Below are positions 281-4,347 of a DNA stretch of 48,536 bases, one piece after another. The stretch spans positions 1 to 48,536 of the forward strand of contig CANHCT010000004.1 in the NCBI GenBank assembly GCA_947459175.1, read 5' to 3'. Origin of the DNA: Hymenobacteraceae bacterium. Lineage in GTDB: Bacteria; Bacteroidota; Bacteroidia; Cytophagales; Flexibacteraceae. The position numbers and the translations under genes were made by a program. The notes beneath the pieces were generated by a model. The model was not told the origin of the DNA and searched no databases. It saw only the letters and a list, made by a program, of their open reading frames with translations. Every line of letters starts with the position of its first letter. The stretch's first letter is position 1.

Positions 281-292
281 GGGCTTTAGCCC
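281..292. repeat. REP-like palindrome GGGCTTTAGCCC, copy 1
   Basis: Five-base stem with a TT centre. The transposase stop codon (286-288) lies inside it. The 17-base stretch 281-297 recurs exactly at 1190-1206. Confidence 0.7.
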
Positions 293-717
293 TGACTATT
301 GAAGCCATAGCTTTTAATAAATCGCTCATATTCATCCTCAAAAGACTCCTTTTTATGATGTTCAGCTTGATTTTCTATGTATTTTCTTACCCTTGACTTT
401 GCAGATTCGCTGACGGATGCCGCAAAGTATTCATCTGCCCATTCAAATCTGGACCTGGTCAGTTTTTCTTTATTGATCCAATGGGCAGATTCCCCTTTCA
501 CCAATTGCAAGGCTTTGCTAAGGGGCATATCGGTGTTTAGGTGAAAAAGGCAATGCAAATGCTCTTCTGCCCCATTCAAGCGGTCAATATAAATCCCCTT
601 TTTCTTTGCGTTTTCTCTTATGTGTGTGATTACAATTGGTAAAATTTCTTTCGAAAGGAAAGGGTATCTGTTTTTGGTTCCCCAAACAGCGTGAATAAGG
701 ATTTGAACAAAAGGCAT
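286..717 (-). CDS. IS200/IS605-like Y1 transposase (RAYT-type)
   Basis: The 143-residue product has the size and motifs of single-domain Y1 HUH transposases. An HLH motif (EEHLHCLFHL, about residues 51-60) supplies the metal-binding histidines. A C-terminal RKYIENQAEHH segment carries the probable nucleophilic tyrosine on a helix, followed by the SFEDEY tail common in this group. These enzymes cut and rejoin single-stranded DNA at hairpins. The start is an ATG at 717 with no obvious Shine-Dalgarno. The TAA stop lies inside the palindrome at 281-292. No TnpB or IscB partner is present. Many REP-like palindromes lie nearby, which suits a REP-associated (RAYT) member, though classical insertion-sequence behaviour is also possible. 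Confidence 0.85.
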   Translation of the reverse strand: MPFVQILIHAVWGTKNRYPFLSKEILPIVITHIRENAKKKGIYIDRLNGAEEHLHCLFHLNTDMPLSKALQLVKGESAHWINKEKLTRSRFEWADEYFAASVSESAKSRVRKYIENQAEHHKKESFEDEYERFIKSYGFNSQG

Positions 718-2335: not shown

Positions 2336-2875
2336 ATGAATCTGAATAAACCGCTGACTCGCTTTCTGTTGAAAGCTGTGGCCTTGTATCTGGGCTGGCA
2401 TTTGCTTTGGTACAACTGGATTGAGCCCGATGGTACGGTCAATCATTACCTAACCTATCATACGGCTTCGGTTGCTGCCCTGGTTCTGAATGCATTTTCC
2501 GATTCCGAATTCCGGCTTTCGCCCTTTGAGGAGCAAAATACCTATCTTTTCAAAGACGGAACAGCTGTAGTGCTCATCGAGCATGGTTGCAACGGATTGA
2601 TTCTGATGGTTCTTTTTGCGGCCTTCATCATTGCCTTTCCCGGGCCATGGAAAAAGAAAGTTTGGTTTATTCCTGCGGGGGTGCTGGCCATTTACATCAT
2701 CAATGCTATACGGGTTATTGGACTGGCAGTCAATCATATATACTCAAAATCGTCTTTCGATTTCAACCACAAATACACTTTCACCATACTGATTTACGGC
2801 GCCATCTTCTATTTCTGGATGGTGTGGGTAAACCGTTATTCGGGCATCAATGCAAAGAAGGTCGCTGCCAAATAA
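2336..2875 (+). CDS. Exosortase/archaeosortase family membrane protein
   Basis: The 179-residue, multi-spanning membrane protein carries the three invariant exosortase residues in family contexts: Cys85 in EHGCNGL, Arg126 in NAIRVIGL and His145 in FNHKYTF. Exosortases are transpeptidase-like enzymes thought to process C-terminal sorting tails of exported proteins. It overlaps the next gene by 26 bp. Bacteroidota encode several short exosortase types; the neighbour looks like the membrane protein that accompanies one of them (possibly the XrtX type), but I cannot settle the subtype by eye. No substrate with a recognisable sorting tail is in the window. The ATG at 2336 is chosen because upstream in-frame sequence contains the promoter and a non-membrane extension. 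Confidence 0.85.
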   Translation: MNLNKPLTRFLLKAVALYLGWHLLWYNWIEPDGTVNHYLTYHTASVAALVLNAFSDSEFRLSPFEEQNTYLFKDGTAVVLIEHGCNGLILMVLFAAFIIAFPGPWKKKVWFIPAGVLAIYIINAIRVIGLAVNHIYSKSSFDFNHKYTFTILIYGAIFYFWMVWVNRYSGINAKKVAAK

Positions 2876-3338
2876 GCTGGGCCTTGCCTTCAGCCTGCTG
2901 GTTTGGGTATTGCTCTACCAGTTTTCCAAGGAAATTTTTGAATGGGCCCGTCCTTTGGTCTTTCAATTCTACGCTACCGGACCAGGTACTTTGCTGCTTC
3001 GGTTTTTTAAGGATACCCTGCATTTCACAGCCGATAATCCCGACTTTTTTATCAAAATTGGTTTTTCTATTCTCTACATTTTCAGCTACTTATGGTTTAT
3101 GGGATTGTATTTTGGCTTCAAAAGTATCCGGCCTTTGATTCTTACCGTGTTTGCAGGATTTCTGGTTTTGTCCATTGGATTGAATGTGCTGGGCAAAGTG
3201 TTGCGGATAGAATCAGCCGTACTTTTGTCCAGGAATACCAATGATTTGATGGTTTCTCCGTTTATGCTGGTGTTTCTCTTTCCCGTGGTGAAGCTTTATT
3301 TTGCCGACCTGGGAAAAAATCCTGATGAACAAAAGTAA
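2850..3338 (+). CDS. Exosortase-associated integral membrane protein
   Basis: The 162-residue protein has about four hydrophobic segments (near residues 11-26, 67-88, 93-115 and 135-150). It lacks catalytic motifs I know. Its start lies inside the exosortase gene and its stop overlaps the next gene by 14 bp, so the three are probably translated together. Small membrane proteins of this kind sit beside certain Bacteroidota exosortases, and the position here is the main argument for a shared role. The family assignment is from context and general resemblance, not a decisive motif. Confidence 0.65.
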   Translation: MQRRSLPNKLGLAFSLLVWVLLYQFSKEIFEWARPLVFQFYATGPGTLLLRFFKDTLHFTADNPDFFIKIGFSILYIFSYLWFMGLYFGFKSIRPLILTVFAGFLVLSIGLNVLGKVLRIESAVLLSRNTNDLMVSPFMLVFLFPVVKLYFADLGKNPDEQK

Positions 3339-4347
3339 GCTGATCTTCGTCTTTTGCTTTTTTTGGAGCCTCGGCTCTGCGGCACAGGATTTTCAGTTTG
3401 GTCAGTTTTATGCCGTTCCTCTTTACTACAATCCTGCTTTTGCGGGTTCTAATTTAAATTCCAGGTTTACAGCGGGTTACCGGAGTCAGTGGACCGGCCT
3501 GCAGGGCTGGCGGGGCTGGCTTGCTTCCTTCGATTTGTATTTGAAAAATGCCAGTTCCGGTGCAGGAATTTACCTGAGCAACAACAGTATAGACCGGCTT
3601 GGATATTCCCACAGCACGGCCATGGTTCAGTATGCCTACAGGTCTAAGATTTCAAAAAAAATCAGGCTATCTACCGGCATCGGGCTGGGTTTCGGGCAGG
3701 TGGGTTTAAATTTTTCCGGGCTCACTTTTGGCGATCAGCTGGAAGGCGACCCTGTGGCTCCCTTCAGTGCCGACCAGGTTGCAGGCCGCAGTCTTTCGGC
3801 TTTTTATCCTGATATTCAGATTGGTTTTTTGGTTTATTCTCAAAAATGGTGGGTTTCGCTCTCCAACCTTCATCCCCACAGCCCTACTTTCGAACTGAAC
3901 GGAGAAAACCAGATTCAGCGGCGCATCAACCTGTCTTTCGGCTATCGCTTTGAAATGAAAAAGCCCACCGATTACAAAGGGGAAATTTCACCCAATGCCA
4001 TTACCCCGGCCATCCTCATCCGCAATCAGGGTTCGGCCAGCCAACTCGACCTGGGCATTTACATGCACTATGTTCCTTTTGTTTTTGGGCTGTGGTACAG
4101 GGGCTTACCCACCTCTTTTGCGGTAAAAGACGGAAAGAAAACTCTGAATCAGGATGCCCTTACGGCATTGGTGGGCATTAAACAAAACAACCTTTCCATC
4201 GGGTATTCCTATGATGTAAACCTGTCGGGGCTGGTCGGTGTACTGGGCGGAAGCCACGAGATATCGGTGACCTACGAATTCAAAACCAAATATCTCAGCC
4301 TCAAAGGTTTGAAGCACAGCAAGGCACTGCCTTGCCCTTCTTTTTAG
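3325..4347 (+). CDS. PorP/SprF family type IX secretion-associated outer-membrane protein
   Basis: The 340-residue protein begins with a signal peptide ending near SAAQ (residues 17-20), followed by the YYNPAFAGS motif that marks PorP/SprF proteins. The rest alternates in the manner of an outer-membrane beta-barrel with many aromatic strand ends. PorP/SprF members help type IX secretion clients reach or stay on the cell surface. The start at 3325 overlaps the previous gene, suggesting coupling. Its place in an exosortase operon is unusual, since PorP/SprF genes more often follow large adhesin genes. The last codons overlap a terminator hairpin. Confidence 0.85.
   Translation: MNKSKLIFVFCFFWSLGSAAQDFQFGQFYAVPLYYNPAFAGSNLNSRFTAGYRSQWTGLQGWRGWLASFDLYLKNASSGAGIYLSNNSIDRLGYSHSTAMVQYAYRSKISKKIRLSTGIGLGFGQVGLNFSGLTFGDQLEGDPVAPFSADQVAGRSLSAFYPDIQIGFLVYSQKWWVSLSNLHPHSPTFELNGENQIQRRINLSFGYRFEMKKPTDYKGEISPNAITPAILIRNQGSASQLDLGIYMHYVPFVFGLWYRGLPTSFAVKDGKKTLNQDALTALVGIKQNNLSIGYSYDVNLSGLVGVLGGSHEISVTYEFKTKYLSLKGLKHSKALPCPSF

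Follow-up and report, generated by a model that had tools for sequence, protein, structure and literature searches.

The window (the whole 48,536-nucleotide stretch of DNA that was analysed, from a Hymenobacteraceae bacterium) carries three plus-strand reading frames that run into one another: 2336-2875 (179 aa), 2850-3338 (162 aa) and 3325-4347 (340 aa, counted from ATG). An earlier note on this DNA had put the overlaps at 26 bp between genes 1 and 2 and 14 bp between genes 2 and 3, and both values are exact. The features of the locus are these:

2336..2875, plus strand: exosortase X (XrtX), 179 aa, of the multi-pass inner-membrane cysteine protease/transpeptidase family (model NF046081)
2588..2590, plus strand: codon of the putative catalytic Cys85 (EHGCNG), Cys in 81/84 aligned exosortases
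2711..2713, plus strand: codon of the putative active-site Arg126 (NAIRV), Arg in 83/84
2768..2770, plus strand: codon of the putative active-site His145 (FNHKY), His in 79/84
2850..3338, plus strand: XrtX-associated membrane protein-like, 162 aa, about 4 TM helices (NF046082, 52.3 bits)
3325..4347, plus strand: PorP/SprF-family outer-membrane protein, 340 aa, overlapping gene 2 by 14 bp (TIGR03519, PF11751)
4319..4335, plus strand: terminator-like stem-loop followed by a T-run, within the 3' end of porP (5 such sites against 4.1 expected by chance from shuffled sequence)

The note had also given the three frames a single promoter and a single terminator, and neither element found backing. A sigma-70-type scan, whose model is ill-suited to Bacteroidota promoters, returned no promoter on the plus strand, and terminator-like sites of the kind found in porP are about as frequent as in shuffled sequence. 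The final porP codons (SKALPCPSF, 4319-4347) fall in that hairpin, and the peptide is kept in three aligned PorPs of the genus: protein and RNA constraint may overlap at this end of the gene. An Rfam scan of the window gave no match. On the minus strand the operon is flanked by a di-haem cytochrome c peroxidase gene and an amine oxidase-like gene. The window also holds an IS200-like Y1 transposase (286-717, minus strand; PF01797, 93 bits) and, beside it, palindromic CCGGCTTAAAAGCCGGGGTTATGGG repeats with a 64-bp period (832-1255). A 171-nt stretch from the 3' terminus of the cytochrome c peroxidase gene flanks them as a 98% identical copy (copies at 90-260 and 1256-1426), and transposase and array together look like a REP-type (RAYT) element that has duplicated a gene end.

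Gene 1 scores 198.1 bits against the exosortase X model NF046081 (E 9e-59, cut-off 170) and is the only XrtX match in the window's genome. It also passes the XrtF model TIGR04128 (98.1 bits, cut-off 90), and is filed under XrtX because that second score is 100 bits lower. The Cys, Arg and His of the active site are all present, and were aligned across 84 tabulated exosortase ORFs (two of them repeat copies of loci); Cys85 is presumably the catalytic residue, as in the exosortase family at large. A sequence search of solved structures with XrtX found no match. Gene 2 scores 52.3 bits against NF046082 (E 4.9e-14, cut-off 75): its position and TM pattern fit, and it is called "-like" only because the score lies under the cut-off. 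For 51 of the 84 exosortase ORFs, the adjacent downstream ORF has two or more TM segments. The AlphaFold model of gene 2, built from 3 sequences, has a pLDDT of 54, too low for use. Gene 3 lies far above both of its cut-offs (TIGR03519, 213.9 bits against 90.55; PF11751, 200.4 bits against 22.3) and is one of 8 PorP/SprF proteins above cut-off in this genome. Two of the gene families named earlier, exosortase and PorP/SprF, stand on these scores, and the partner membrane protein is assigned by resemblance.

The observation that no sorting-tail protein lies nearby was borne out by six-frame scans of the window, which found none. As the earlier note had expected, the candidate substrate is encoded elsewhere in the genome: a 71-aa protein on contig C34 (G000:C34:1515-1583, minus strand) with a PVDGG-TM-basic tail, which scores 44.4 bits against the PID-CTERM model NF046080 (cut-off 26) and is the sole protein of the genome above that cut-off. 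The first clue to this class came from second XrtX-like loci in three other genomes (G395, G396 and G399), where small proteins encoded immediately before the exosortase carry a C-terminal PIDGG motif followed by a hydrophobic helix and Lys/Arg. PID genes lie directly 5' of XrtX in several loci. The PID-CTERM mini-proteins are ORFs of about 50-140 aa in which a signal peptide is followed by a short stretch rich in Pro and Gly and then by the PI/VDGG-helix-basic tail, and at least one is carried by each of the 5 genomes of the window's genus. Another search near XrtX was for long proteins ending in a TM-basic tail, and its candidates were set aside: besides noise it turned up just a few proteins resembling those of polysaccharide export, and it missed the substrates because the true ones are mostly shorter than its 120-aa cut. 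Some Wza/EpsE-like proteins near exosortases do end in a hydrophobic helix and basic residues (L120 8580-9374, plus strand; L070 4574-5392, minus strand; L146 4364-6829, minus strand), probably an outer-membrane helix rather than a sorting tail.

Enzyme and tail travel together. Among 59 relatives, 21/21 PID-positive genomes fall within the 24 that have an XrtX-model match. In a sample of 395 genomes from this phylum the model matches 116 at E<=1e-3, and these include every one of the 62 that are PID-positive. Read the other way, 48 of the 51 genomes in that sample with a strong XrtX match (E<=1e-45) carry a PID protein. We take PID-CTERM to be the XrtX sorting signal, and from the behaviour of the exosortase family we infer that XrtX would cut or transpeptidate the PID tail. 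Enzyme and tail are already known as NCBIfam models: for gene 1 and the C34 protein the score clears the cut-off of the respective model in the trio NF046081/NF046082/NF046080, which gene 2 joins as a likeness below cut-off. The neighbouring accessions NF046080-NF046082 suggest that the curators view them as one system.

The company kept by the PID genes links them to the T9SS. The C34 gene lies 68 bp behind the gene of a 1675-aa protein that bears a type A sorting domain of the T9SS. The wider sample held 80 distinct PID ORFs, taken mainly from the best-scoring matches and not at random; L194 was dropped (too little upstream sequence), leaving 79, and the PID ORF of L240 is not listed separately, its tail being shared with another copy. 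In 52 of the 79 a T9SS-CTD gene on the same strand ends between -38 and 272 bp upstream (median 55 bp), compared with 7 of 471 control ORFs, which were mechanical ORFs of at least 100 aa from the same loci (Fisher p 7e-45, relatedness ignored). A T9SS-CTD gene lies downstream of the PID ORF in 2/79. Upstream neighbours matched TIGR04183 in 58/70 cases (two duplicates merged, from 72; 7/79 PID genes have no neighbour of at least 100 aa within 500 bp). As a yardstick, TIGR04183 has 100 matches at E<=1e-3 in the 3.0 Mb genome, the last listed of them under the cut-off; the genome does encode Por_Secre_tail CTD proteins, as type A cargo. By a tally from genome handles, the PID-cargo pairs span 12 GTDB families. 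In G395 and G396, and more loosely spaced in G399, the order is cargo, PID protein, exosortase and second cargo. In G396 and G395 a T9SS type A cargo of 972 aa starts -1 to 7 bp from the end of a second XrtX-like gene (L123 4520-7438 and L126 4288-7206, both minus strand).

The pairing is incomplete. By HMM, 27 of the 79 PID genes have no CTD gene within 300 bp upstream; for some of these, inspection by eye or TIGR04183 does reveal one. Three orthologous PID genes in the window's genus (L210, L212, L213) have as neighbour only a weakly CTD-like gene, at 257-347 bp, that is without the pre-CTD domain described below, and the window's own XrtX is not adjacent to a T9SS cargo gene. What the pairing indicates is shared function, not physical contact. 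The very short or overlapping gaps (median 55 bp, as above) would also be seen if the PID "genes" were read-through tails or remnants of the T9SS proteins upstream, a reading we regard as highly improbable: the mini-proteins have their own start codon and a signal peptide-like N terminus, they occur without upstream cargo and directly before xrtX as well, and the cargo already terminates in a T9SS CTD of its own.

The cargo proteins are also related to one another. Clustering of the 52 partners gave one linked component, related outside the CTD; the idea of separate, unrelated partner families was dropped on that result. The single component led to the finding of a common domain just before the CTD. 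No Pfam or NCBIfam model matched more than 1 of 51 members in this region. Searched against the PDB, a profile of the domain found RemA (3.4e-27) and RemZ (2.2e-24) of F. johnsoniae (cryo-EM structures 8gl6, 8gl8 and others). Because the partners served to train the profile, its 51/51 among them is by construction; in CTD-type neighbours of mini-proteins outside the training set it was found in 12/18, and in other CTD proteins sampled from the window's genome in 2/22, neither of which has a mini-protein beside it.

These observations lead to the reading we prefer: the operon does the processing for a dedicated sorting system whose mini-proteins serve adjacent RemA/RemZ-like T9SS adhesins, to which we give a probability of roughly 60%. 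It builds on sequence in the gene identities, the intact catalytic residues, the co-occurrence of signal and enzyme, the cargo pairing and the shared pre-CTD domain; cleavage, the acceptor, the tether role and any role of PorP are proposed beyond these. The dedicated sorting unit would consist of XrtX, the partner membrane protein and, in the window's genus only, PorP/SprF. XrtX would cut at or near the PIDGG motif on the periplasmic face of the inner membrane. Exosortases are thought to pass the cut product to an acceptor, and XrtX may likewise hand its short peptide to one. The processed peptide would then serve the large RemA/RemZ-like T9SS cargo encoded immediately upstream, most probably as a tether, an assembly partner or a retention factor for that cargo at the cell surface. 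In the window's genus, PorP/SprF might act as the outer-membrane component for the hand-over.

The third gene needs separate treatment. The order exosortase, membrane protein, PorP was found in 5/5 genomes searched from the genus; the PorP orthologues there are 63-71% identical and always lie within this operon. The closest PorP beyond the genus is 41% identical and unlinked. PorP adjoins 5 of the 84 tabulated exosortase ORFs, its matches in the fetched loci came only from genus loci or were the window genome's own PorPs, and it is absent at the XrtX locus of the other XrtX-bearing family members G399, G401, G402 and G404. The earlier note had asked whether pairs of exosortase and PorP/SprF recur: they do within the genus, and at every other XrtX locus examined they do not. 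PorP as a general XrtX partner was accordingly rejected, the adjacency ending at the genus boundary, and the overlap of exosortase and PorP on its own is a local arrangement.

Two accounts of that arrangement can be given. One holds that porP was captured behind a two-gene xrtX operon in an ancestor of the genus, so that transcription alone is shared and the operon is uninformative on the T9SS. This has close to an even chance: it explains the narrow distribution and the third genes behind the XrtX pair, which vary between families, and sits less well with the overlapping or near-overlapping arrangement retained in all five genus genomes and with a substrate system tied to the T9SS independently. 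The other makes PorP a working part of the sorting machine, with the overlap reflecting obligate coupling. The identical order and tight spacing or overlap in all five genomes, with PorP conserved as above, speak for coupling, and the T9SS link of the substrates lends it plausibility; we consider it rather unlikely, given that the other XrtX loci examined, four of them in the same family, have no PorP, and that none was found beside PID-CTERM genes with an HMM made from the genus and window-genome PorPs (which distant PorPs may escape). PorP/SprF joined the exosortase operon in the window's genus, which fits a T9SS link and is unnecessary for that link elsewhere. The link between exosortase sorting and the T9SS put forward in the earlier note survives chiefly through the substrate-cargo gene pairs, and not through PorP adjacency, which is genus-bound.

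A related arrangement is seen with XrtF (TIGR04128; Fjoh_1448/1449 in F. johnsoniae), which resembles the present system in having an exosortase with a partner membrane protein, gene 1 itself passing the XrtF cut-off, and differs in a looser tail and in cargo pairing that is rarer in Flavobacterium proper. We compared 30 XrtF-type genomes (a provisional label; 15 of them supplied the seeds of a tail model) with 20 genomes in which no exosortase was matched. Mini-proteins with PI[DN]-TM-basic tails occur in XrtF-type genomes that lack a PID match, and these tails are looser (PIDDH, PIDEN and PINED, compared with PIDGG). The tail model matched at E<=1e-3 in 9 of the 15 non-seed genomes, missing G202, G012 and G308 (none), G277 (0.022), G265 (0.0047) and G281 (0.0042), and in 0/20 genomes without exosortase, where the best value was 0.0036, in a 187-aa frame. 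Among 26 loci inspected, the mini-protein gene follows directly on one that encodes a type A or C domain of the T9SS in 9, and in 17 the CTD gene upstream is absent (L365 was not parsed). Genomes of family f7 (L364, L368, L371) have a mini-protein with an SPIDMY tail 5 bp behind a T9SS-CTD protein of about 450 aa and 60-61 bp ahead of a conserved secreted protein of 428-430 aa, resembling a fixed three-gene unit. Small Flavobacterium proteins that combine a CAMCRAAL motif with a TM-basic C terminus (L310, L311, L312) gave weak tail-model matches and are probably unrelated to this class.

In F. johnsoniae, deletion of xrtF or of its partner gene gave much less biofilm, no zorbs and less colonization of sand, like T9SS mutants, and the authors leave the XrtF substrates to later work (PMC10936215). 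A broader proposal is that in Bacteroidota XrtX and XrtF, both small exosortases, work in trans on behalf of the T9SS, each large RemA/RemZ-type adhesin having its own processed mini-protein that anchors or matures it at the surface, which would put names to the XrtF substrates and connect two systems regarded as unrelated. We hold this tentatively, at somewhat less than even odds.

The comparison with XrtA/EpsH and PEP-CTERM bears on the main competing explanation. The two systems share the exosortase fold family and a motif-TM-basic tail on exported proteins; here, by contrast, the enzyme is short (179 aa), the motif is PID (PVDGG in this genome's substrate, not PEP-type), the substrates are mini-proteins, and the neighbours are T9SS cargo rather than an EPS cluster; no EPS gene cluster lies among the immediate neighbours of this exosortase. 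XrtX/PID-CTERM could nonetheless serve polysaccharide or matrix export as XrtA/PEP-CTERM does, the T9SS pairing arising from adhesins that also bind matrix. Such a role would suit the Wza/EpsE-like export genes near some XrtX loci (L120, L146, L070) and a protein judged by eye to be sugar-transferase-like downstream of the triad in G395, as well as the history of the family, since exosortases were first linked to EPS (PMC1569441). We think it unlikely: there are no EPS genes among the examined neighbours of the window locus, and the recurrent direct neighbour of the substrate gene is T9SS cargo (58/70, as above), not an EPS gene.

The proposed system has partial parallels. In the T9SS with PorP/SprF, large SprB-type adhesins have an accessory gene directly downstream. 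The present system is similar in that gene 3 is a PorP/SprF member and an accessory gene stands directly behind a large adhesin, and differs on two points: the accessory gene that follows the type A cargo encodes a PID-CTERM mini-protein, and PorP is found beside the exosortase instead of an adhesin. Rhombosortase/GlyGly-CTERM with type II secretion likewise combines C-terminal processing at the inner membrane with an outer-membrane secretion machine; there it is the secreted protein that bears the tail (PMC7468200), whereas here a separate small neighbour does. The NCBIfam XrtX models as consulted state no T9SS partner, and the PorP third gene is genus-confined here. In the open-access full-text literature we found no statement of a T9SS pairing of exosortase substrates, though the NCBIfam curators may have noted it, and no PMC open-access paper containing the term "PID-CTERM".

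The gene pairs suggest that two surface-display systems considered separate act together. In F. johnsoniae XrtF is needed for biofilm formation and surface colonization (PMC10936215). The mini-proteins supply concrete candidate substrates for XrtX and XrtF and connect these with RemA/RemZ-class adhesins of the T9SS. If the reading of a dedicated sorting unit is true, exosortase processing and T9SS export would be two arms of one surface-display pathway, and the retention of RemA/RemZ-class adhesins would become testable.
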